Assembly: GCA_030431085.1 (NCBI GenBank)
Contig: JAUIJW010000002.1
Location: 1 to 34,720, forward strand
Direction of reading: 5' to 3'
From: Bacteroidia bacterium
Lineage (GTDB): Bacteria > Bacteroidota > Bacteroidia > Flavobacteriales > Flavobacteriaceae
Length of the DNA stretch: 34,720 bases
The notes beneath the pieces were generated by a model. The model was not told where the DNA came from. It searched no databases and saw only the letters and a program-made list of their open reading frames with translations. Positions within the stretch are counted from its first letter, which is position 1; each line of letters starts with the position of its first letter. Below are positions 482 to 22,953 of this stretch, piece by piece. The position numbers were made by a program, and so were the translations under genes.

Positions 482-1384
482 TTGGCATCATATAAATCAT
501 GGCTTAAAGCCGCAAGGTTAAGAACATTACCATTATCATTATCTGGAATAATTGTAGGCTCATCATTAGCCTATGCCGAAAACCAATTCAACGGTTGGAT
601 TTTTTTGTTGGCTTCACTTACTACTGTTGGGTTTCAAGTGGTTTCTAACTTTGCAAATGATTATGGTGATGGGGTTAAAGGTACTGATAATGCCGATAGG
701 GTTGGACCTACACGAGCACTACAAAGTGGTGATATTAGCCCTAAACAGATGCTTAAGGCTATTAAAATAGCTTCAATCTTGACTTTTGTTTTAGCCCTTG
801 GCTTGATTATTTTGGCTTTTGGTAAAACTCACTTTAAATATGTATTCTTATTTATCGGGTTTGGTATTGCCAGCATTGTGGCCGCTTTAAAATATACCAT
901 GGGTAAAAAGGCTTATGGTTATAGTGGTTATGGCGATGTTTTTGTGTTTTTGTTTTTTGGATTATTAGGAGTATGTGGAAGTTATTTTCTATACACCAAA
1001 TCATTACATTATTCAGTTTTTTTACCGTCTTTCACCATTGGTTTATTGAGTACTGCTGTATTGAATCTCAATAATATGAGAGATCAAGTCTCTGATAAAA
1101 AGGCTGAGAAAAGAACCTTAGTAGTAAAAATTGGTAATGAATTTGCTAAGTATTACCATTATTACCTGTTAGGAGCTTCATTTCTTTTTGCGTTATGGTA
1201 TACTGCTATTAATTTAGAAAAACCATCTCAATTCTTATTTTTAGGAGCCTATGTTTTTATTTTTAGACATTTTAAGGTGGTTTATGATAATGAAAATCCA
1301 GAAAAGTTAGATCCAGAACTTAAAAAATTAGCGTTAAGCACATTTTTGTTTGCCTTATTGTTTGCCCTAGGATTAATGATTTAA
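482..1384 (+). CDS. menA: 1,4-dihydroxy-2-naphthoate polyprenyltransferase (UbiA family)
   Basis: 'NFANDYGDGVKGTDNADRVGPTRALQSG' UbiA Asp-rich motif, multiple TM helices; TTG start; menC and menE nearby. Confidence 0.93.
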   Translation: MASYKSWLKAARLRTLPLSLSGIIVGSSLAYAENQFNGWIFLLASLTTVGFQVVSNFANDYGDGVKGTDNADRVGPTRALQSGDISPKQMLKAIKIASILTFVLALGLIILAFGKTHFKYVFLFIGFGIASIVAALKYTMGKKAYGYSGYGDVFVFLFFGLLGVCGSYFLYTKSLHYSVFLPSFTIGLLSTAVLNLNNMRDQVSDKKAEKRTLVVKIGNEFAKYYHYYLLGASFLFALWYTAINLEKPSQFLFLGAYVFIFRHFKVVYDNENPEKLDPELKKLALSTFLFALLFALGLMI

Positions 1385-1421: not shown

Positions 1422-1429
1422 TATCTTTG
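1422..1429 (+). promoter_or_regulatory. Putative Bacteroidota -7 element TATCTTTG upstream of the copper cassette
   Basis: Exact match to TAnnTTTG 20 nt upstream of GTG at 1449; no clear -33 TTG at ideal spacing. Confidence 0.4.
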
Positions 1430-1448: not shown

Positions 1449-1832
1449 GTGAAGAAACTAATTTTTACTCATATTTTTATTAATCTATATATTCTAGCTC
1501 TACTACAGCCAGTGTTGCCATTATTAGATTATGTAGTCAATTATGATTATATTGTTTCAGAATTATGCGTTAACAAATCTAATACTGTTAAAGGTTGTAA
1601 TGGTAAGTGTTATCTAAGTGCTAAGGTAGAAAAGCAAACCAAAGATGATGTTGATAAACCCATTCCTAAATTACCAAAATTAGATTTGAACACATTTCTA
1701 ATATTTGTGATTTTTAATCCATTAGATTGGCACTCTTCAGTGAATAGTGAAATTGAAAAAAAAGTCTATTATTGGAAAGAACAAATAAATTCATTTTATA
1801 TAGGTTCTGTATTCCACCCACCACAGTTTTAA
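1449..1832 (+). CDS. Small membrane-anchored Cys-containing hypothetical protein of the copper cassette
   Basis: GTG start; N-terminal hydrophobic helix; CX9CX3C motif 'CVNKSNTVKGCNGKC'; co-directional with the lipoprotein and TonB receptor. Confidence 0.7.
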   Translation: MKKLIFTHIFINLYILALLQPVLPLLDYVVNYDYIVSELCVNKSNTVKGCNGKCYLSAKVEKQTKDDVDKPIPKLPKLDLNTFLIFVIFNPLDWHSSVNSEIEKKVYYWKEQINSFYIGSVFHPPQF

Positions 1833-1854
1833 TTTTACATTTTTTGCAATGTTA

Positions 1855-1879
1855 AGCTGGTAAACACATTTACCCAGCT
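1855..1879 (+). terminator. Imperfect hairpin after the 127-aa gene (possible attenuator or weak terminator)
   Basis: AGCTGGTAAA-CACA-TTTACCCAGCT with one bulged base, followed by GTTATTTT. Confidence 0.35.
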
Positions 1880-1947
1880 GTTATTTTGTGTGAACACCAA
1901 AAGTGTTTTGCACGCCTAAACTTATACCTATTAATAAAAAAACAAAA

Positions 1948-2793
1948 ATGAAAAATTTAAAAAACTTACTGTTATTATTACTAATTAATATGCTTATTGT
2001 TTCATGTTCTGATGATGATCCTAACGAAACGATCGATGAAACTTCGGGGCTTACAAAAATTGAAACTATAAAAAATGATAGTCATACCATAGAATTGTTT
2101 AATGAGATGGGAGTACTCACTAATGGATATAATGACATTGTGTTAAGAATTAAAGAGAATGATTCTGAGACCTATATAGAAAATGCTAGTATCACATGGA
2201 AACCTATGATGCATATGACTACAATGATGCATTCTTGTCCGAAATCTATGGTATCAAAAATTGAGTTCGCTAAAACTTTATATACAGGTTATATTGTATT
2301 TCAAATGCCAGGAAACGCATCAGAGGGATGGGATTTAACCATCAATTATACCATAGATGGGATAGATTATGAGGCCAAAGGCGATATAGATGTAAAAATG
2401 GCTGCAGATAAAATTAGCACTGTATTTATGGGAACAGATGATACAAGGTATGTGCTATCTATTAAAAATCCATATGATTTAGAAGTGAAACTGAACGAAG
2501 TTGAAATGACATTACATAAAATGGAGGATATGATGACTTTTACCGTAGTAGAAGATTATAAAATTATGTTAGACCCAAGAATGCCCAGTATGGGTAATCA
2601 CTCTTCCCCCAATAATGTTGATTTAACCTTTAATGCTTCACATAAAATGTACGAAGGAAAACTGTCATTAACAATGACCGGTTTATGGAGATTAAACCTG
2701 ATGCTATTGAATGATAGTGGAGAGCTCCTTAAAGGTACCGAAGTTACAGAAAGTAACGAGAGTAGCGACCTGTATGTAGAGTTTGAATTTTAA
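1948..2793 (+). CDS. Met/His-rich lipoprotein (YtkA/FixH-like), predicted metal-binding
   Basis: Likely start is the internal ATG at 1948: MKNLKNLLLLLLINMLIVSC lipobox followed by SDDD; 'WKPMMHMTTMMHSCP', 'MHKMEDMM', 'MLDPRMPSMGNH'. Confidence 0.75.
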   Translation: MKNLKNLLLLLLINMLIVSCSDDDPNETIDETSGLTKIETIKNDSHTIELFNEMGVLTNGYNDIVLRIKENDSETYIENASITWKPMMHMTTMMHSCPKSMVSKIEFAKTLYTGYIVFQMPGNASEGWDLTINYTIDGIDYEAKGDIDVKMAADKISTVFMGTDDTRYVLSIKNPYDLEVKLNEVEMTLHKMEDMMTFTVVEDYKIMLDPRMPSMGNHSSPNNVDLTFNASHKMYEGKLSLTMTGLWRLNLMLLNDSGELLKGTEVTESNESSDLYVEFEF

Positions 2794-2802
2794 CTAATAC
2801 CA

Positions 2803-2833
2803 TTACCTACTACAAGTTTTTTGTAGTAGGTAA
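2803..2833 (+). promoter_or_regulatory. Perfect 13-bp inverted repeat just upstream of the TonB receptor ATG
   Basis: TTACCTACTACAA-GTTTT-TTGTAGTAGGTAA; second arm ends 7 nt before ATG at 2841. Confidence 0.75.
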
Positions 2834-2840
2834 CTTTACT

Positions 2841-4832
2841 ATGAAAAAAGTACTAATAACATTATGGTTCTTTAGCTTAAGCATTACAACAATGCATGCT
2901 CAGGAGATAGATACAATATTACCTGTTCAATTAGAAGAAGTAATTTTAATAGGTAAAGAAAAATCTCAAAACAAGGAAAATATCAAACCACTAGCTACTA
3001 TTGATGAATATCTAGAGAAGTCGAATAAAATTACCATGATAAAAAGAGGTAATTACGCCTGGGAACCTGCTATCAATAATATGGTTTCAGATCGGCTCTC
3101 TGTTACCATAGATGGGATGCAAATTTTTGGGGCTTGCACCGATAAAATGGACCCAACCACGTCTTATGTAGATATTTCAAATTTAGAAGAGGTCAATATT
3201 TTATCTGGCCAACAAGGTTCTGAGAATGGCGCGACGATTGGAGGTGGTATTGATATGAAAATGCAAAAAGGTCAATTTGGAGAACAACATTGGGATATAG
3301 GTCTAGATAGTGGATTTGAATCTAATGGCAACGCTACTATTTTGAGCACAGAATTTAGTTATAACGACTCATCATGGTTTGCTAATGCTGATGTAATGTA
3401 TAGAAAATCTGGAAATTACTTTGCCGGAGGAAATAAAGAGGTTAAGTTCTCTCAGTATGAAAAATTTAATGTTTCTGCCGTAACTGGCTATAAAATTAAT
3501 GATGAAAGTGACATTACTGCCACTGTAATTTTTGATAAAGCCACAGATATTGGCTATCCTGCGCTAACCATGGATGTATCTTTAGCGCAAGCTATTATAG
3601 GCTCAGTAGGCTATAATCATAAAAATGTAGGAATATTCGATCTAATTGAAACAAAACTTTACGCCAACACCATTACACATGTAATGGATGACACCAAAAG
3701 GCCGGATGTACCAATCCATATGGATATGCCAGGGTGGAGTGATACTTACGGGTTTTATGCAAAAGCACATAAAACTCATCAAAAGCATCACTTCTTATTT
3801 AATATCAATAGTTATTATAATAAGTCATTGGCAGAAATGACAATGTATCCTAATGATCCAAATGAAAATCCAATGTTTATGTTAACATGGCCAGATGTAA
3901 GAACTTGGTACTCCGGATTTTATGGAGAAGATAATTTAACCATAAGTGAAGTAGATAAAATTAAGGTTACAGCGCGAATTGGATTTCAAAACGAGGAAGT
4001 TGCTAGTGAATTTGGTTTAAATAGCTTACGTATTTTTTATCCAGACATGTCGTCTACTCAAAATAGATTTTTATTGAGTTTTTCTGGTCAATATGAACTT
4101 AAGAAAAACCAATACGAACTTATCGTCAGTACAGGGTATGGTGAAAGAGCACCTTCGGTTTCTGAGGGGTATGGATTTTATTTATTCAACAGTTTTGATA
4201 ATTTTGATTATCTAGGTAACCCTTATCTTGACAAAGAAAAGTCCATTGAATTGAATGTTGCAGGTAATTACAAGCTAAATAATTTTAAGTTTGGATTAGA
4301 ATCTTCTTTTTTTTATATCAGAGATTATATCATAGGAGAAATAGATCCAACGTTAAGTCCGATGACTATAGGAGCTAACGGTGTAAAAGTTTATAGACCA
4401 TTAGATTATGCTACTATTTGGAATTCTAATATTGATGTAACATACTCTTTTTTAAATCATTTTGAACTAATTGGAGGTATTGGCTACAGTTTAGGTAAAG
4501 ATTATGAAAATAATAATTTACCATTAATAAGTCCGCTTAATTATCGAGCTTCATTGCAGTATTCCAAGGCCATGTTCTTTGCAGAAATTGGCTTAACGGG
4601 TGCCTCTAAACAGAATAATTTTGCTGGTGATTATGGAGAGGATCAATCGGATGCCTATACCATATTTAATGCCAATACTTCATATAATTTTTACTTAGGG
4701 AAGAATAAAATGATTGTTAAGGCAGGAATAGAAAATATATTCGACCAGTTTTATTCTACTTATGCAGATTGGAATAATATACCTAGAATGGGGAGAAATG
4801 TGTTTTTAAATTTATCTTATTTGTTCGATTAA
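2841..4832 (+). CDS. TonB-dependent outer-membrane receptor, OprC/NosA-like copper transporter
   Basis: Signal peptide, plug ('LSVTIDGMQIFGACTDKMDPTTSYVDISNLEEVNILSGQQGSENGATIGGGI'), beta-barrel ending in ...LSYLFD; CxxxM (C99/M103) and HxM (H280/M282) motifs. Confidence 0.88.
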   Translation: MKKVLITLWFFSLSITTMHAQEIDTILPVQLEEVILIGKEKSQNKENIKPLATIDEYLEKSNKITMIKRGNYAWEPAINNMVSDRLSVTIDGMQIFGACTDKMDPTTSYVDISNLEEVNILSGQQGSENGATIGGGIDMKMQKGQFGEQHWDIGLDSGFESNGNATILSTEFSYNDSSWFANADVMYRKSGNYFAGGNKEVKFSQYEKFNVSAVTGYKINDESDITATVIFDKATDIGYPALTMDVSLAQAIIGSVGYNHKNVGIFDLIETKLYANTITHVMDDTKRPDVPIHMDMPGWSDTYGFYAKAHKTHQKHHFLFNINSYYNKSLAEMTMYPNDPNENPMFMLTWPDVRTWYSGFYGEDNLTISEVDKIKVTARIGFQNEEVASEFGLNSLRIFYPDMSSTQNRFLLSFSGQYELKKNQYELIVSTGYGERAPSVSEGYGFYLFNSFDNFDYLGNPYLDKEKSIELNVAGNYKLNNFKFGLESSFFYIRDYIIGEIDPTLSPMTIGANGVKVYRPLDYATIWNSNIDVTYSFLNHFELIGGIGYSLGKDYENNNLPLISPLNYRASLQYSKAMFFAEIGLTGASKQNNFAGDYGEDQSDAYTIFNANTSYNFYLGKNKMIVKAGIENIFDQFYSTYADWNNIPRMGRNVFLNLSYLFD

Positions 4833-4897: not shown

Positions 4898-5575
4898 ATG
4901 AAAATTACTTATTTAGGCCATGCCTCTTTACAAATAGAAATTGCTGGGAAAATACTTATAGTAGATCCTTTTATTTCGGCTAATGAATTAGCTAAGCATA
5001 TTGACGTTAATGCTCTTAAAGTAGATTATATTTTAATCACCCACGCACATCAAGATCATGTTTTAGATGTTGAGACTATTGCTAAAAACTCAGAGGCCAT
5101 CATTATATCAAATTATGAAATAGCCTCCCATTACGAAAGGTTAGGTTTTAAAGCCCATCCGATGAACCATGGGGGTAGCTGGTCATTTGAATTTGGTAAA
5201 TTAAGTTATACCAATGCCATACATACTAGCTCTTTTGCTGATGGTAGTTATGGAGGCCAACCTGGTGGTTTTATTATCGAAACCACTTCTAATAATATTT
5301 ATATTGCAGGTGATACGGCGTTGACAATGGATATGAAGTTAATTCCGTTACAAACCAATATAGACCTGGCTGTTTTACCTATAGGCGATAATTTTACAAT
5401 GGGTGTAGAAAGTGCAGTTATTGCTTCTGAGTTCGTAGAATGTACTAAGGTGTTAGGATACCATTATGATACCTTTGGTTATATTAAAATTGATCATGAA
5501 GCGGCTAGGCAGCATTTTAAATCAAAAGGAAGAGAGTTACTATTGTTAGACATTGGTCAAGAAATCGAGATTTGA
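4898..5575 (+). CDS. UPF0173-type metal-dependent hydrolase (metallo-beta-lactamase fold)
   Basis: 'MKITYLGHASLQIEIAGKILIVDPFIS', 'THAHQDHVLD', 'YIAGDTALTMDM'. Confidence 0.9.
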   Translation: MKITYLGHASLQIEIAGKILIVDPFISANELAKHIDVNALKVDYILITHAHQDHVLDVETIAKNSEAIIISNYEIASHYERLGFKAHPMNHGGSWSFEFGKLSYTNAIHTSSFADGSYGGQPGGFIIETTSNNIYIAGDTALTMDMKLIPLQTNIDLAVLPIGDNFTMGVESAVIASEFVECTKVLGYHYDTFGYIKIDHEAARQHFKSKGRELLLLDIGQEIEI

Positions 5576-6497: not shown

Positions 6498-7535
6498 ATC
6501 AAAGCAACATTCCATAAATACATTTTAAATTTTAAAACGCCAGGAGGTACCTCTAGAGGTGTATTACATCAAAAAGAAACTTACTTTTTGAAGATCCAAA
6601 AAGACCAACAGATGGGCATTGGAGAATGTGCTCTCTTTCGAGGATTAAGCCATGATGATAGACCAGACTATGAAACAGTTCTTCAGCGCTTATGCATAGA
6701 GATTAATAAATCGCCATCTGATTTATTAAAGGATTTAATCGATTATCCGTCTATCCAATTCGGTCTAGAACAGGCATTACTCTCCTTAAAACAAAGAAAT
6801 AAATTTGAATTGTTTCCTTCAGAGTTTACACAGGGCAAAGCTAATATTTCAATTAATGGATTGATTTGGATGGGTGATAAAGATTTTATGAAAAAGCAAA
6901 TCATCGAAAAGTTAAAAGATGGATTTACAACGATTAAATTAAAAATAGGAGCTATAGATTTTCAAACTGAATTGAATTTAATTAAACTTATTCGCAAAGA
7001 ATTTAACCCAGATGAAATTGAAATAAGAGTAGATGCTAATGGTGCTTTTTTACCTCATGAGGCTTTAGATAAAATGAAACGTTTAGCAGAATTTAATTTA
7101 CACTCTATAGAACAACCAATACAACAGGGACAAATCGAGTCTATGGCAAAACTTTGTCGAGACACTCCTTTACCAATAGCTTTAGACGAGGAACTTATTG
7201 GTGTGGTAGATTACGATTTAAAAGAACAACTTATCGATATAATTAAACCGCAGTATATTATTTTGAAACCTAGTTTGGTTGGAGGGTTTAAAGGGAGTAG
7301 AGAATGGATTACTATTGCAGAAAAATATAATATTCAATGGTGGATTACCTCTGCATTAGAAAGTAATATTGGATTGAATGCCATTGCTCAATATACCTAC
7401 AAGTTAAAGCCTACATTACCACAAGGTCTGGGTACAGGTGGCTTGTTTAATAACAACATCGAAGCACCATTAGAAGTTGTTAAAGGAAGTTTAAGATACA
7501 ATACCCAGTTAAATTGGGGAGAATTACCCTGTTAA
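6498..7535 (+). CDS. menC: o-succinylbenzoate synthase (enolase superfamily); N-terminus extended upstream of the listed TTG
   Basis: 'GFTTIKLKIGAIDF', 'RVDANGAF', 'SIEQPI', 'LDEEL', 'IILKPSLVGG'. In-frame codons 6495-6587 encode EIKATFHKYILNFKTPGGTSRGVLHQKETYF, which continues into the listed ORF and looks like a MenC N-terminus; no canonical start codon is present there. Confidence 0.88.
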   Translation: MKATFHKYILNFKTPGGTSRGVLHQKETYFLKIQKDQQMGIGECALFRGLSHDDRPDYETVLQRLCIEINKSPSDLLKDLIDYPSIQFGLEQALLSLKQRNKFELFPSEFTQGKANISINGLIWMGDKDFMKKQIIEKLKDGFTTIKLKIGAIDFQTELNLIKLIRKEFNPDEIEIRVDANGAFLPHEALDKMKRLAEFNLHSIEQPIQQGQIESMAKLCRDTPLPIALDEELIGVVDYDLKEQLIDIIKPQYIILKPSLVGGFKGSREWITIAEKYNIQWWITSALESNIGLNAIAQYTYKLKPTLPQGLGTGGLFNNNIEAPLEVVKGSLRYNTQLNWGELPC

Positions 7536-8533: not shown

Positions 8534-9565
8534 GTGAAATCAGCTAGTTTACATAAATGCTTTAGGATAAACGGACAAGGATTTGAATCGGCAGATGAGC
8601 TGATAGATTACTGTAAATATCGCGATATTGAGGGCTATGAGTTTTTAGAAGACTGGTTTGGTAAGTCAAAAAACGTTAATGTTTATACTTCTGGCTCAAC
8701 CGGAAAACCTAAGTTCATGACGTTAGCTAAAAGTAATATGGTTAATTCGGCGTTAGCTACGGCAGAATATTTTAATATATATGCTAATACCAAGGCACTA
8801 TTATGTATGTCGTCTAATTATATTGCTGGAAAAATGATGTGGGTGAGAGCTTTAACTCTTGGGTGGCATTTAACTGTAGTTAAACCACAAAGCAATCCGT
8901 TAAAGCATTTAGAGGGTTCATTTGACTTTGCTGCAATGGTGCCATTGCAAGTGACTCAATCATTACCTAAACTGCACTTAATACGTCAGCTTATTATTGG
9001 GGGAGGTGTTTTATCGAATGTATTAGAAGATCAGCTAAAAAATATTAAAACCAATGTTTATGTTACTTATGGCATGACAGAAACAATTACCCATATTGCT
9101 ATAAGAGAAATTACTGGTAAAACTGAAAGGCTATATTCTGTTTTACCTGACATAAAGATAAGTTTAGATTCAAGAAATTGTTTGGTTATTGATGCACCTA
9201 AGCTCAATAATCAAAAAATAGTTACAAACGATTTGGTTAAAATTTATAATAATAACCAATTTGAATGGCTAGGGAGAATAGACCATGTGATTAATTCTGG
9301 AGGTGTTAAACTAAGTCCCGAAGTTATTGAGAAAAAATTATCAAAAAGTTTACCATTTAACTTCATTGTTGGCTCGAAAAAGGACGAGGTTTTGGGAGAA
9401 AAAGTTATACTAATCATAGAATCTAAGTCGCATAACCAAGACCTGAATTTTGAAAATCTAGATCGTTTCGAGAGACCTAAAGAGGTTTTGTATTTAGGGG
9501 CGTTTTGTTATACCAAAAATGGGAAAATTGATAGAACTTCAACGATAAGTTTGGCTATTCAATAG
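8534..9565 (+). CDS. menE: AMP-binding enzyme, o-succinylbenzoate-CoA ligase
   Basis: 'YTSGSTGKPKFMTL' P-loop, 'YGMTETITHIA', 'VKIYNNNQFEWLGRIDHVINSGGVKLSPEVIE', 'KNGKIDR'; men gene context; GTG start. Confidence 0.9.
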   Translation: MKSASLHKCFRINGQGFESADELIDYCKYRDIEGYEFLEDWFGKSKNVNVYTSGSTGKPKFMTLAKSNMVNSALATAEYFNIYANTKALLCMSSNYIAGKMMWVRALTLGWHLTVVKPQSNPLKHLEGSFDFAAMVPLQVTQSLPKLHLIRQLIIGGGVLSNVLEDQLKNIKTNVYVTYGMTETITHIAIREITGKTERLYSVLPDIKISLDSRNCLVIDAPKLNNQKIVTNDLVKIYNNNQFEWLGRIDHVINSGGVKLSPEVIEKKLSKSLPFNFIVGSKKDEVLGEKVILIIESKSHNQDLNFENLDRFERPKEVLYLGAFCYTKNGKIDRTSTISLAIQ

Positions 9566-16833: not shown

Positions 16834-19800
16834 TTATTTTTTAACCACTTTAGTGGTGTATTTTTCACCTTCAATAATACACTCAACAATGTAAATACCA
16901 TTGTCTAATGTGCTTAAATCAATGCCTTCTGGCAAATCAGAATAAGTATTACTCATTACCATTTGACCGCCTAGTGCGTAAACATTTATTGATGTTGTGC
17001 CAGTCATTTCATTTGATAAGAAAAGATTTAAATAACCTTCGGTTGGATTAGGATAAACCCTAAATGGTTTCATCAACTTTTCTACAATTAATCCATCTGC
17101 ATTAAATGGTTCAGAAATACTAGAACATCCATTACTGTTAGTTACCTCTACTGTATACTCACCTTCCCAAATTGCTAAAATCGATTTGGTATTTGAGTTA
17201 GGTAATGGTCTATTATTTAAATACCATTGGTAAGATGTTCCTTCTAAGCTCGCTCCTAATTTTCTACTTTTATACACTTGAATTTCAGGGGTTTCATTGC
17301 CTATTATGTTTATACTTGTGTGTAATATTTTCCCCACACCATTTTTATAAACAGTTACATAATAATCACCACTTGCTGTTGCAGGATAGGTGGCATTGGT
17401 AGAACCATCAAACCATTCGTAGGCATCGTATTCGCCTGGATTTAAATCTACTACAGGCCCACAAACATCTCCGCTTGCTAACTTTGATTCAAAATTATCA
17501 AATTGAACATTAACAGATTCTGTTAGTTCACAACCATTGGCAAACATAACTGTTACATCGTAAGTGCCAGATTGGTTAACATATATACCATTGCTTGTTT
17601 CACCATTGCTCCAGGTATAAGAAGAGGCATTCAATTCATTATAAATAATGTTGGTCTCAGCGTCTAAATATAATGTCTGCCCTTGGTATCCATAAATGGT
17701 CGTATTATCAAATATTTTAAAATCTTCATTAAGTTTTTGATATACATAATTGTTAATGATATTGTTGTTGGTAATTTCATCACCTTCTAAGGTAGCCACT
17801 AAATTAAACACATGTGAGTCTTCCACATCAGACAAAGTAGGCTGTACCTTAAACGTATAGTCAATACTCTCGCCAATTGCTATATTTACATCAACCAATT
17901 CTGTAATTGCTTCTTGGGTATTGCTATACTCTAAATCTAAAGTAATGGCATCGGCTGCAATATCTACTTGGCCAGAATTAGTTAATCGGATAGTAACTTC
18001 ATCATTTACACCACAGATATCTCTAGGCGAAATTAATTCAATAGCCACATCGGTTAATGGGTCTGTAGTCATAGTAATATCATCTAGGGCCATATAAGAG
18101 TACCCACTTGCTTTAGCATGTCTAAAACGCAACATAATGTTACTGTTTTTATACGCACTTAAATTAACCACGGCTTTTTGCCAAGTTCTATCTCTATGAT
18201 CGCCTTGATTGGACACTCTCCATACTTCTTCCCACTCTCCATTTAAGGTTTTAATATCTAAGATAAGCGCATTTATAGTATTAGATTGTAGAGCATAATA
18301 AAATTCTAATCCCGCTACATTGTCTGGTAAACTAAAGAAGGAAGAATTTAATTCTCCGTAGTAATAATTGTTTTCTAACTGGTTGTACAACATTTGAGCA
18401 GATTCATCGCCGGTGTGATCTGTTTTTGGTAGCGATAAATATGGATTTTCATGTTGTACCACTACTTTCCAAGGATAATTGTTGGTTCCTTCATTAGAAA
18501 TCCATCCTTTTTGCCCAAATAAAGCGCCTTGCTCAAAATCAGAGAAATCTAGTGTGGTTAAGCTTGGAGCATCATTAACTACATTAATAGTAGCTACGAC
18601 TTTGTTATCATCTAAATTGATTTCTCCTTCCACATTTACTGTAATTTCAATATCATAGACACCTTCCTCTAATTCTGGCAAATCTTCTATGATGTAAATA
18701 ATGGATTCATTTTGTAAAACCGAAGCATTCTTTTCAACATCTACAGGGCTTCCAATTGGGTTGCCATTTTGTAATATTTGATAGTTGATTACTACCTGGT
18801 CTACAGCATTATAACCTATATTTTTTGCACCAATAAACAATTTGTGATCTGGTGTATGTGTATACATCATTTCTGGGACACTTAAGTTAGCCACTTTGAA
18901 ATCGATAGCCGACTTTTTAATTTCAATATTATCTACCGCAAATCCGTTGGCAAATAACCCGTTGTCATCATGTACAAAAGCAATTTGTACACATGATTGG
19001 CCAGCATAGTCACTTAAATCAACATCATATTCTTGCCAAGCACTTAAATAAGCAATATTATATATAGTTTTCCAAGTAATACCACCATCAGTACTCACTT
19101 TTACATAACCGTCAGAAAATTGAAATCTATCTCCATATCCATCAAATGAAAGGTAAGCTTCTGTATAATTACTTAAATCAAAAACTGGAGAAATTAACAT
19201 GTCATTAGAGGCATCACAGTTACATTTATCGTCATTACTAGCCATGAAATTGGTATGTTCAGCAATAAACCATCCAGGAGTACCTAAATCAGATCGAACA
19301 CCGTGCTTCCACCCATTAGATCCTTTATTTTCTTTAGTTCTCCATCCGGTATAACCATTCTCATCTTCAAAATCCATTAGGTATGGTAAAGAATTTATTA
19401 CTAGATCTTCTTTAGGCCATATATCTTCATAAAAGACAATTGCATTATTCTCTGGTTTAATTTCTTTTGCAGTATCTTCTGGATAAACTGTTACAGAAAC
19501 TTGATGTTCACCAAAGCTAGAAAAATTTAAAGCGGTGGTAAAGTTATAAGACACGGTATCTTTAAACTTGGTAAAATTAATTGTACCCGTTTCTGCGAAT
19601 GCATACAATTCTTCACCTTCCATGTTTAAAATTTGCGTAGTGAAAGTAAGTGTTTCTTGATTTGTTGGGAAGTTATTTACAACATCTACCGTTAAGTTAG
19701 CTGATGTGAAATCTAACTCACATTCACCTGCATTAATATTGGCTGAGATAACTTCTAAATCATACGGAGCTTCATCAATATAAATATTGTCCACAAAAGC

Positions 19801-22800
19801 ACCGTAAAAATTATCTGGGTTTTCATTGGTTAATACTCTAAATCGAAGTTTAGCTTTTTTACCAGCAAGGTTGTTTAACCTTACTTTAATTGGGTCTTTA
19901 AAAGATTGACTGTTAACCCCTGTAAACCAAGGGCCTTGTGTTAAATCATTATAATGTGTATCCTCAGAATAATTTTCGCTGTCAATTTTCACCCAAGTGG
20001 TGCCATTGTCTTCTGAGTATTCAATAATTAAGCCGTCGTACCCTTTTTCGAAAGCCCAAATGGCATCAAACTCCATATAAGGTGAGGTAATGTTTGTAAA
20101 ATCTAATACAGGAGATTCTAAGGCAAAATCAGCATTGGTTGTTGATAAGATAGTTTTTCCATAAATAGCAGTACCCCACATATACTCAGATGGTAAGCCC
20201 CTAAATTTAATAGGGTTTTTGTAGTAAACCCAGTTTTGATCATTTTGTAGAGCTACAGAAGTCCAGGCTCCAGTAGTTCTTTCAAAATTTTCACTATACG
20301 GAAACTCTTGTATGCTACCACTAAAAGTTGCATTAATAATAGAATTATTACTTGGTACAGGATCTTCTTGATAAGAAACAAAAGCCTCAAAAGTATGCAG
20401 TCCTTGTGCCGATAAATCAATATTGTTATCGAACTCTACAGTTAATTCTGACTCACCCTTAAAATCTTCTGTTAAGGTAACTGATTTCCATATAGTATCT
20501 GTTTCGTGTAACGTATTAATATAGCCTACTTTAAAACTTGTGCCAGACGCAATATCAAGACACCCTAAGTTTTTGATTGTTGTAGATAGCTTATGATCTG
20601 TTGGCAAGCTATTACCGCTTGTAGTAGGTAAACTGATACTTTTTAGCGCCAAATCTAAATCTTTTTCGCCAGGAGGAACAATGAATCCAGTTAATACAGA
20701 TAGTCCACTTTTAGTGCTAAAATCTTCAATAGGATCAAAATCCAGTTTTATTTCTACATAATTGGTTATTCTTGCATTTACCAAGTAAGGTAAGTCATCT
20801 TGTACTTTTAGCGTACCACTTTCTCCAATAGGTATTTCATTGTCAAAAGTAGTTTCTCCATCATTGGAGTAAAGTTCAAAAAACCTACCTCTAGAGAGTA
20901 CCATTACTCTTATTTTGTAGTTAATTGTACTATTGGCCATAATATTTGCCGCTCCTGTATTTTTTACGGTAATATAAAATGGTTCTGTACCAGTTAGTGG
21001 CCCACAGTCTACCGTTGGTGCATCAAAAGAAACTAAAGATAATTGGTTGTCACTATATTGAGTACCAACTCCAACTGCGTACCAAGCATTGGTAATTTGA
21101 ATATACTCTTCAGAACCAAGCCCAAATAAATCTTCTGCAGCCATTAAACTCGCTTGGCGCATATGGGCAAAGTTTGAAGATGGTGTTAGGTATTCTGTTA
21201 AGGTTACATAAGCTAATTTTTCAGCTTTTTCTATTCCAATAGGAGATACATCATAATCATCATAATTGTCGTTTACACCATTACCACCTTCGCAAAGCAA
21301 ATAAAACCAGTAATTGGATACACCACTGTTTATGTGTACACCACCATTGTCATACCCTAAATTTGCTGGGTTAACCCAGTTTCTTCCTCCATAAGTATCA
21401 GGATGCCCTTCTACGTTTGGATCAGCCATATTACGCATAGAACCGTGATCGTACAGCTCATCGCCTAATTTCCAGATATCATCCTTGGTATCTTTACCTA
21501 CATAAAATTCAACAGCAACACCAAGCATATCACTAAAAGATTCATTTAAGGCTCCAGATTCACCTGCATATACTAAATTGGCAGAAAATTGTGTAACTGC
21601 ATGTGTTAATTCATGTGCAGTAATTCCTAAAGATACATAAGGAGCATTGTTTCCGTCACCAAATTGAGCCCAACCACCTGTCCAAGATGCATTGCTTACG
21701 TTTTCGCCCAAATGAGCTAAACCAATTACATTCAGCCCCTCATCATCTACACTATTTCTGTCAAATTTTTCAGTATAATAATCTATAGTTTTTTGCATAC
21801 CCCAGTGTATGTCTATGGCAGATTCATCACGTGATTCGTTATGTAAATCTGTCCAAATATTATCTTCATCAATGAAATCTGTAATTATCTCATCTGTTGG
21901 CCAATCGGCATGATTCATGTTTAATGTATAAATTGGCACATTATATTTACCTTGGGTATTTTGTAATCTATAGCCATCAGCAAATTGCTGTGTATTAAAA
22001 GTTACTTCACCTGCATATCTACTTTTTCCTTTACCAATAACATCTGTATCTCTTTGTAAATCGATTGTTAGAATAATATTTCCGGTATTGGCATCAACAT
22101 AAACAGTTTGGCTTACTTGTGGTGAGGTAGCATAAACATCAAATTTCCATGCCAAATGATATTTATTTAATTGCGTAGAGAAATTAGGCCCTACATATAC
22201 CAATTCTCCTTTAGGTTTCTTAGAAATATTTTTATGAACCAGAGACGATAGTTTTTTACTTTCCCACAAATATTCTTTGGCATTCACTTTATTTAGGGCC
22301 TGCTGTAAAGCATCTTCATTAGATAATTTATAATTGCTATTTAAATTAATATCACTACTAATGTACCCAAAAGCCTCAATTTTGTATTGATCTTCTCTAA
22401 CTTTATACATGGCACCTTCAACTGGAATGGAATTATGCATTTGTTGATAAGTCGCCACAGTGCGATTGTGTTTTAAGGAAGTAGATTTTAATTGCATATA
22501 ATCAGCTTTCTTTAAAGAAAAAGCCGATTTTTTAGCTTCAAATATATTTTTAGCATTCAAGTTTGCCGATTTGGCAAATGTTTTAACATCTACTCCTGTT
22601 GTATCCTGATAACTTGTATTAGATAAGGGTTGAACTAGAGTTTGTTCCGTATTAAGGCGATTTGAAATTTGCTGACTTTCTCCTTCTGATAATTTTTTAC
22701 TACCATTTGGGATAACTGGTTCTTGTAAATACGCATTAGTACTTGAACCTGTATTTAAAACCTTTTGATTAGCACTTTGATTTGCATACGGAGGGTTTTG

Positions 22801-22953
22801 TTTTTTAATCTGCTTTGTAGCAGGGTTTTCTACTGCAGTTTTAGCATTGCTATTTGGTCTTACCTGTAGAGGCGATTGTGCCATCCCTAAAGAACAGATA
22901 AATAACCCAAGTAGAAGTAGTAATGACTTCGATTTAGAGTAAACATGTTTCAT
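16834..22953 (-). CDS. Large M4 (thermolysin-like) metallopeptidase with FTP/PepSY-like propeptide, repeated ectodomains and T9SS type A sorting domain
   Basis: 'GITAHELTHAVTQ' (HExxH), 'GALNESFSDMLGVAVEFYVG', 'GGVHINSGVSNYWFYLL'; three choice-of-anchor/MAM-like blocks; C-terminal 'FRVYPNPTEGYLNLFLS...LDNGIYIVECIIEGEKYTTKVVKK'. Confidence 0.95.
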   Translation of the reverse strand: MKHVYSKSKSLLLLLGLFICSLGMAQSPLQVRPNSNAKTAVENPATKQIKKQNPPYANQSANQKVLNTGSSTNAYLQEPVIPNGSKKLSEGESQQISNRLNTEQTLVQPLSNTSYQDTTGVDVKTFAKSANLNAKNIFEAKKSAFSLKKADYMQLKSTSLKHNRTVATYQQMHNSIPVEGAMYKVREDQYKIEAFGYISSDINLNSNYKLSNEDALQQALNKVNAKEYLWESKKLSSLVHKNISKKPKGELVYVGPNFSTQLNKYHLAWKFDVYATSPQVSQTVYVDANTGNIILTIDLQRDTDVIGKGKSRYAGEVTFNTQQFADGYRLQNTQGKYNVPIYTLNMNHADWPTDEIITDFIDEDNIWTDLHNESRDESAIDIHWGMQKTIDYYTEKFDRNSVDDEGLNVIGLAHLGENVSNASWTGGWAQFGDGNNAPYVSLGITAHELTHAVTQFSANLVYAGESGALNESFSDMLGVAVEFYVGKDTKDDIWKLGDELYDHGSMRNMADPNVEGHPDTYGGRNWVNPANLGYDNGGVHINSGVSNYWFYLLCEGGNGVNDNYDDYDVSPIGIEKAEKLAYVTLTEYLTPSSNFAHMRQASLMAAEDLFGLGSEEYIQITNAWYAVGVGTQYSDNQLSLVSFDAPTVDCGPLTGTEPFYITVKNTGAANIMANSTINYKIRVMVLSRGRFFELYSNDGETTFDNEIPIGESGTLKVQDDLPYLVNARITNYVEIKLDFDPIEDFSTKSGLSVLTGFIVPPGEKDLDLALKSISLPTTSGNSLPTDHKLSTTIKNLGCLDIASGTSFKVGYINTLHETDTIWKSVTLTEDFKGESELTVEFDNNIDLSAQGLHTFEAFVSYQEDPVPSNNSIINATFSGSIQEFPYSENFERTTGAWTSVALQNDQNWVYYKNPIKFRGLPSEYMWGTAIYGKTILSTTNADFALESPVLDFTNITSPYMEFDAIWAFEKGYDGLIIEYSEDNGTTWVKIDSENYSEDTHYNDLTQGPWFTGVNSQSFKDPIKVRLNNLAGKKAKLRFRVLTNENPDNFYGAFVDNIYIDEAPYDLEVISANINAGECELDFTSANLTVDVVNNFPTNQETLTFTTQILNMEGEELYAFAETGTINFTKFKDTVSYNFTTALNFSSFGEHQVSVTVYPEDTAKEIKPENNAIVFYEDIWPKEDLVINSLPYLMDFEDENGYTGWRTKENKGSNGWKHGVRSDLGTPGWFIAEHTNFMASNDDKCNCDASNDMLISPVFDLSNYTEAYLSFDGYGDRFQFSDGYVKVSTDGGITWKTIYNIAYLSAWQEYDVDLSDYAGQSCVQIAFVHDDNGLFANGFAVDNIEIKKSAIDFKVANLSVPEMMYTHTPDHKLFIGAKNIGYNAVDQVVINYQILQNGNPIGSPVDVEKNASVLQNESIIYIIEDLPELEEGVYDIEITVNVEGEINLDDNKVVATINVVNDAPSLTTLDFSDFEQGALFGQKGWISNEGTNNYPWKVVVQHENPYLSLPKTDHTGDESAQMLYNQLENNYYYGELNSSFFSLPDNVAGLEFYYALQSNTINALILDIKTLNGEWEEVWRVSNQGDHRDRTWQKAVVNLSAYKNSNIMLRFRHAKASGYSYMALDDITMTTDPLTDVAIELISPRDICGVNDEVTIRLTNSGQVDIAADAITLDLEYSNTQEAITELVDVNIAIGESIDYTFKVQPTLSDVEDSHVFNLVATLEGDEITNNNIINNYVYQKLNEDFKIFDNTTIYGYQGQTLYLDAETNIIYNELNASSYTWSNGETSNGIYVNQSGTYDVTVMFANGCELTESVNVQFDNFESKLASGDVCGPVVDLNPGEYDAYEWFDGSTNATYPATASGDYYVTVYKNGVGKILHTSINIIGNETPEIQVYKSRKLGASLEGTSYQWYLNNRPLPNSNTKSILAIWEGEYTVEVTNSNGCSSISEPFNADGLIVEKLMKPFRVYPNPTEGYLNLFLSNEMTGTTSINVYALGGQMVMSNTYSDLPEGIDLSTLDNGIYIVECIIEGEKYTTKVVKK

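Follow-up and report, generated by a model that had tools for sequence, protein, structure and literature searches.

The question raised by the locus

What does a small cysteine-containing protein do at the head of a set of copper-acquisition genes? The question arises in a window of 34,720 nucleotides (nt) from a Flavobacteriaceae bacterium (assembly GCA_030431085.1, contig JAUIJW010000002.1, positions 1 to 34,720 of the forward strand; "the window" denotes this whole stretch). Here, three co-directional genes encode a 127-residue protein, a lipoprotein and a TonB-dependent receptor (Table 1). A first-pass annotation had read the three as a copper-acquisition module in which the lipoprotein captures copper at the cell surface, the receptor carries it across the outer membrane, and the small protein serves as an inner-membrane or periplasmic transport component. 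We confirmed the three reading frames from the sequence, and our analysis upholds the module, which is co-inherited, as well as two of the three roles, those of an OprC-type receptor and of a copper-binding lipoprotein that is probably surface-exposed. The third role is not supported: judging from sequence comparisons, the three genes likely form a copper-import operon in which the 127-residue protein is a copper-sensing leader peptide (an upstream open reading frame, uORF) similar to CruR and CutF, switching the other two genes.

The three genes are inherited together

A receptor-based scan of GTDB genomes, blind to the other two genes, yielded 80 named loci. The lipoprotein gene lies beside the receptor gene in all 80, and the small gene is part of the cluster in 76, so that the predicted co-occurrence across Bacteroidota is near total. 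Three of the four loci without a small gene (L179, L241 and L250) stop at a contig edge; in the fourth (L180) the gene is masked, with a visible tail of SVFKPPQFLA-stop. The genes occur in both possible orders after the small gene, small-lipoprotein-receptor and small-receptor-lipoprotein.

The small protein pairs a cysteine motif with a terminal Pro-Pro

The key feature of the small protein is its C-terminal HPP, in the ending VFHPPQF-stop, which the first-pass annotation had not mentioned. The CX9CX3C motif that it had described is indeed present as C40-x9-C50-x3-C54, 70 residues ahead of the Pro-Pro. An in-frame TAA immediately precedes the GTG at position 1449, and the protein therefore cannot extend further N-terminally. 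Residues 2-19 are modeled by AlphaFold2 (AF2) as a hydrophobic helix beginning with KK (predicted local distance difference test score, pLDDT, >90). N-terminal helices continue to residue 66 and disorder follows, with low confidence past the helices. Searches of Pfam and NCBIfam returned no family match for the small protein or its homologues.

In 62 homologues, taken from genomes sampled at roughly one per genus, the sole invariant residues are three cysteines, one glycine and the terminal Pro-Pro. Because many of these homologues were detected through matches covering only the N-terminal half, the terminal Pro-Pro was not selected for by the search. In a set of 189 unique homologues, whose counts, like all homologue counts here, are not phylogenetically independent, 186 combine C-x7-10-C-x-G-x-C with a Pro-Pro 1-8 residues from the stop codon. 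The distance from the last cysteine to the Pro-Pro is 69.0 ± 2.1 residues (range 63-74), and the spacer between the two motifs (about 65 residues) is unalignable despite its fixed length. The residue before the Pro-Pro is H, P, R, K, Q or E. A Pro-Pro in the final 10 residues is found in just 3 of 186 other open reading frames (ORFs) of 90-160 amino acids from the family-level loci. The family is present in 154 of the 393 sampled Bacteroidota genomes (about 39%). Three homologues (L161, L162 and L249) read through QPP or HPP and are possibly extended or frameshifted.

The placement of the gene is equally regular. Of 188 following genes, 185 run in the same direction as the small gene, and the Bacteroidota-type −7 promoter box TAnnTTTG occurs within 70 nt upstream of 119 of 187 leader genes, compared with 5 of 145 lipoprotein genes, 3 of 165 receptor genes and 183 of 1428 background ORFs. 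The window gene carries this box as well; it proved informative where a sigma-70 promoter scan gave nothing above shuffled sequence. The modules headed by the family comprise lipoprotein-receptor pairs, MbnP-MbnH, PepSY_TM with a TonB receptor, and two outer-membrane-barrel-like families (c5 and c9). At four loci (L044, L050, L054 and L144) the leader gene is duplicated before a single copper module, with the copies adjacent or one gene apart.

These observations bear on the reading closest to the original proposal, namely that the 127-residue protein is a stable inner-membrane or periplasmic copper chaperone or adaptor fed by the receptor, with copper carried by the cysteine motif and an incidental Pro-Pro. 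Such a protein would account for the invariant C-x9-C-x-G-x-C following an N-terminal hydrophobic segment, and for the strict linkage to copper genes. However, it would leave unexplained a Pro-Pro that is invariant beside the stop codon while the preceding residues keep their number and lose their alignment. The small gene is also always upstream, of modules that share no partner (MbnP-MbnH, the c5 barrel, the PepSY_TM-associated receptor and the OprC-type receptor), no fold is modeled past the helices, an in-frame ATG start is absent from a third of the homologues (65 of 189), and elsewhere DUF2946 leaders ending in RAPP or RGPP take the gene's place (see below). We therefore consider a chaperone unlikely; the Pro-Pro, the fixed spacing, the gene's own promoter, its first position, the disorder and the substitution all fit a leader peptide better.

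Apparently unrelated families of probable leaders occupy the same position

CruR of Bordetella, a DUF2946 protein, is an exported cysteine-containing protein that ends in RAPP and is encoded first in a TonB-receptor operon (PMC9426467). When copper is absent, RAPP stalls the ribosome, and transcription proceeds; copper at the CXXC motif frees the stall, and Rho terminates transcription (PMC9426467). The arrest was later demonstrated in vitro (PMC12992588). DUF2946-like proteins ending in RGPP or RAPP, some scoring just under the Pfam cut-off, head copper receptor genes at four of our Bacteroidota loci: before MbnP-MbnH-lipoprotein-receptor in L265, before receptor-lipoprotein in L266, and before a receptor with one gene in between in L268 and L269. 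A second leader family (142-160 amino acids, Cys/His-rich, with CYCE...CTCHH and the ending LLRPPR[VA]-stop) heads the lipoprotein-receptor pair in 11 loci (L106, L107, L109-L113, L116, L117, L121 and L167), with RPP or KPP close to the stop codon. Its conserved cysteine lies 58-61 residues ahead of the Pro-Pro; the corresponding distance in the Bacteroidota DUF2946 proteins is 48-50 residues.

We treated the three families as unrelated, since hhalign comparisons among them gave probabilities of at most 10% over small alignments. The window family and the Bacteroidota DUF2946 proteins reached 0.2%, and PF11162 (DUF2946) matched none of the 62 leader homologues and none of 40 relatives. Substitution by DUF2946 proteins and by the second family is the strongest evidence we have for counting the window protein among the copper leaders as a functional class. 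The wider proposal is evenly balanced in our judgment: that Bacteroidota possess a separate set of copper-sensing arrest peptides that have no relation to CruR/DUF2946 and read periplasmic copper, with at least three non-homologous leader families interchangeable before the same operon. A published survey of RAPP/RGPP uORFs reported no copper-linked ones in Bacteroidota (PMC12992588); contrary to that survey, a few DUF2946 copper leaders of this kind do occur there.

The receptor and lipoprotein are predicted to handle copper

The window receptor matches TIGR01778 (TonB-copper; E = 3e-33, 115.4 bits, under the equivalog cut-off of 472) and the OprC structure 6fok (E = 3e-16), with the CxxxM and HxM motifs aligned. 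Copper in OprC is liganded by C143 and M147 of the plug and H323 and M325 of the barrel (PMC8610252). Their equivalents C99, M103, H280 and M282 are invariant in 29 receptor homologues down to 19% identity, a set that includes a group 19-24% identical to the window receptor. Retention of all four ligands supports the earlier assignment of the receptor to the OprC type. Because an OprC-like receptor with the CxxxM-HxM motif is already on record for Bizionia argentinensis, a flavobacterium (PMC11213822), the receptor by itself is not new.

The lipoprotein is modeled as two beta-sandwich domains (AF2 with 53 homologues, pLDDT 93). Its lipobox, LIVSC, is followed by SDDD, which we take to resemble the Bacteroidota surface-export signal. 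The second domain resembles Ag-bound Helicobacter CrdA (9ll4; Foldseek probability 1.00, target-normalized TM-score 0.77, root-mean-square deviation 2.7 Å). At the profile level the match to YtkA (PF13115) falls just below threshold (E = 3.7e-5, 24.7 bits versus a gathering cut-off of 25.9), and that to CrdA is weak (E = 0.014). The Met/His motifs remarked on in the first-pass annotation exceed chance: DPRM-x-P/M..NH is kept throughout the lipoprotein family, the conserved Met-rich stretch reads DPRMPxMGNHSSPNN, and the invariant residues include M88, M90, H95, M212, M215 and H218. CrdA itself is a Met-rich copper-binding protein (PMC9182242). We presume that the lipoprotein is a surface copper-capture protein with a CrdA/YtkA-like second domain. 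The literature we searched contains no description of this component of the operon.

The receptor's substrate might instead be chelated copper, another metal or a metallophore, with the copper context secondary. The TIGR01778 score, far under the equivalog cut-off (115 versus 472 bits), leaves room for this, as does CrtA, which shows that copper-regulated receptors can take chelated copper (PMC12914433). Against it stand the four invariant OprC ligands, the CrdA-like lipoprotein and the nos and mbnPH context, and we regard a different substrate as very improbable. A NosZ fragment (80% identical) is present in the window's own genome. Related cassettes adjoin nosZ, nosL, mbnP/mbnH or PepSY_TM genes, and in L105, L108 and L114 the lipoprotein-receptor pair lies directly 3' of nosL, apparently within the nitrous-oxide-reductase cluster.

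An inverted repeat directly before the receptor gene (Table 1) is a possible intercistronic control or mRNA-stability element. Among lipoprotein-receptor gaps of more than 35 nt, 21 of 75, with that of the window among them, contain perfect stems of at least 9 bp, and the sequences of these stems are mostly unrelated.

A model for copper-controlled expression

In the mechanism that we favor, a promoter just 5' of the small gene would start the operon mRNA, and the N-terminal hydrophobic segment of the leader would bring the translating ribosome to SecYEG. The ribosome would then pause at the terminal Pro-Pro, by which point C-x9-C-x3-C would have passed the tunnel and the translocon and reached the periplasm. 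Under copper scarcity, the pause would hold and cover the end of the leader mRNA, transcription would continue, and the lipoprotein and receptor would be made. Copper on the cysteines would release the pause, the leader would be completed and degraded, and the downstream genes would be turned off. Rho would probably bring this about at the end of the leader mRNA, which is rich in C and poor in G (C 0.206, G 0.125 in the distal portion). The lipoprotein would take up copper at the cell surface and pass it to the OprC-type receptor, whose TonB-driven import would supply cuproenzymes, N2O reductase and cytochrome oxidase among them. An extended chain of about 50 residues is long enough to run from the peptidyl transferase centre through SecYEG to its periplasmic exit (PMC7513700); since the 69-residue spacing exceeds this length, we infer that the leader senses periplasmic copper.

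CutF of Rhodobacter capsulatus (cutFOG) suggests control in the opposite direction. It has a CxxxC motif, a terminal proline motif and a required signal peptide, and a stem-loop mediates the activation of cutO by copper (PMC9973294). A CutF-type mechanism at our locus would have copper strengthen the pause and open a stem-loop that covers the ribosome-binding site of the next gene, turning the operon on for detoxification or supply. The design rules shared with published CutF-like proteins (fewer than 150 amino acids, a terminal Pro-Pro, an N-terminal export signal, for which the hydrophobic helix of the window protein is a candidate, and a co-directional neighbor) speak for it. However, structure after the leader is no greater than in controls, and the genes behind the leader encode importers, a class that copper represses in published cases, making this version quite unlikely. 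Across the family, RNA after the leader folds with a mean z of −1.5 versus −1.2 in controls, and we accordingly rejected a conserved RNA switch or a stem masking the Shine-Dalgarno site 3' of the leader. In the window, the hairpin in the leader-lipoprotein intergenic region has a folding z of only −0.8 to −1.5, which is not significant, and a search for an intrinsic terminator between these two genes found none.

Several points weigh against an arrest-based leader that acts like CruR. The leader ends in (H/P/R/K)PP, whereas arrest has been proven for RAPP/RGPP, and with EF-P active a Pro-Pro by itself arrests ribosomes weakly. Moreover, a CutF construct that terminated in Pro-Pro failed to arrest unaided (PMC9973294). 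The lack of excess RNA structure 3' of the leader counts here too, and the C>G skew may be a mere consequence of amino-acid composition; both the skew and the missing structure are circumstantial for the mechanism. Finally, one same-genus genome (G515, a fragmented assembly) has the receptor and no detected leader, and the genome G509 has a leader 3' of menA with no cassette following.

Relation to known copper-sensing and copper-uptake systems

The proposed leader resembles Bordetella pertussis CruR (cruR-crtA(bfrG)-PepSY_TM) in being a small, putatively exported cysteine protein with a near-terminal Pro-Pro at a fixed distance from the cysteines. Both head operons for TonB receptors (the OprC type included), PepSY_TM and MbnPH, and the C>G region inside the leader recalls the rut region mapped in cruR (PMC9426467). 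In contrast to CruR, the window family has no DUF2946 match, carries C-x9-C-x3-C rather than CXXC, and ends in (H/P/R/K)PP rather than RAPP. Its spacing of 69 residues, versus about 45 in CruR, would carry the cysteines clear of SecYEG instead of leaving them at the tunnel or translocon.

The window protein shares CxxxC with CutF, which is thought to sense extracytoplasmic copper (PMC9973294); the CutF stem-loop over the next Shine-Dalgarno site is unsupported at the window leader. A list of CutF-like proteins drawn up by rule in 2023 comprises 29 clusters and includes many entries from Bacteroidota (PMC9973294). By its rules on length, Pro-Pro and neighboring gene the window protein is CutF-like, at 127 amino acids (limit 150), with HPPQF-stop placing Pro-Pro in the last 15 residues and a co-directional lipoprotein ATG 115 nt away (limit 1000 nt), and its family may be among the published clusters without a name.

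The receptor shares the CxxxM-HxM site of OprC/NosA and a NosA-like tie to N2O reductase; it differs in its length of 663 amino acids, in scoring under the TIGR01778 cut-off and in its pairing with a dedicated lipoprotein. The lipoprotein shares the fold of its second domain and a Met-rich loop with Helicobacter pylori CrdA and YtkA, but differs from CrdA in having two domains, in being tied to import rather than efflux, and in conserving His as well as Met.

Nascent-chain copper sensing is already known; what sets the present case apart is the proposed leader family's own motif, spacing and phylum, and its attachment to a three-part copper-import operon. Copper-sensing leader switches have so far been worked out experimentally only in Proteobacteria, and there is hardly any description of how Bacteroidota take up copper and regulate that uptake. 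The family predicts copper-responsive genes, new ones included (the c5 and c9 barrel-like proteins and the CrdA-like lipoprotein). If the compartment that is sensed depends on how far the sensor lies from the arrest site, spacings of 69 and about 45 residues should split periplasmic from cytoplasmic copper sensing. If the wider proposal holds, nascent-chain copper sensing would be a convergent solution, reached by at least three leader families without homology to one another.

Genomic setting of the window cassette

Profile matches confirm that the cassette lies between menA and the UPF0173, menC and menE genes (Table 1). This menaquinone setting, emphasized in the first-pass annotation, turned out to be incidental, as most genomes with the cassette carry it at another site. 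In four same-genus loci (L272, L273, L275 and L276), from genomes without the small gene or an OprC-type receptor, menA abuts UPF0173 directly. We rejected a role for the cassette in menaquinone synthesis given its many other locations and these empty junctions. Same-genus variants at the site (L126-L138) read either menA-small-receptor (755 amino acids)-UPF0173, without the lipoprotein, or menA-small-lipoprotein-receptor-UPF0173. The empty and variant sites together indicate that the cassette is a unit gained or lost there. In L270 (6693-7082), and also in L135, a leader gene stands 3' of menA without the cassette, and the following gene is on the opposite strand.

Table 1. Features of the copper cassette and its neighbors in the window
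Feature	Position	Strand	Description
menA	482-1384		Upstream of cassette; NF004750, 352.6 bits
Bacteroidota-type −7 promoter box TATCTTTG (TAnnTTTG)	1422-1429	+	Seen in sequence; box start 27 nt from small-gene start codon
Small gene (putative leader)	1449-1832	+	127 amino acids; GTG start; no Pfam/NCBIfam match
Cys motif codons, C40-x9-C50-x-G-x-C54	1566-1610	+	Presumed copper sensor; C40, C50, G52 and C54 invariant in two alignments
P124-P125 codons	1818-1823	+	Presumed ribosome-arrest motif (HPPQF-stop); P124 and P125 invariant in two alignments
Leader-lipoprotein intergenic region	1833-1947	+	115 nt; expected regulatory site; holds non-significant hairpin
Lipoprotein gene	1948-2793	+	281 amino acids counted from ATG
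Inverted repeat TTACCTACTACAA...TTGTAGTAGGTAA	2803-2833	+	Perfect 13 bp (14 pairs with G-T); z −4.4; directly before receptor ATG
Receptor gene	2841-4832	+	663 amino acids; OprC-type, TonB-dependent
UPF0173 hydrolase gene	4898-5575		Downstream of cassette; NF001911
MenC-like gene	6588-7535		Beyond UPF0173; PF13378
MenE-like gene	8534-9565		Beyond UPF0173; PF00501

Elsewhere in the window, positions 16834-22953 encode a 2039-residue secreted protease with a thermolysin M4 domain, MAM domains and a C-terminal sorting domain (Por_Secre_tail).

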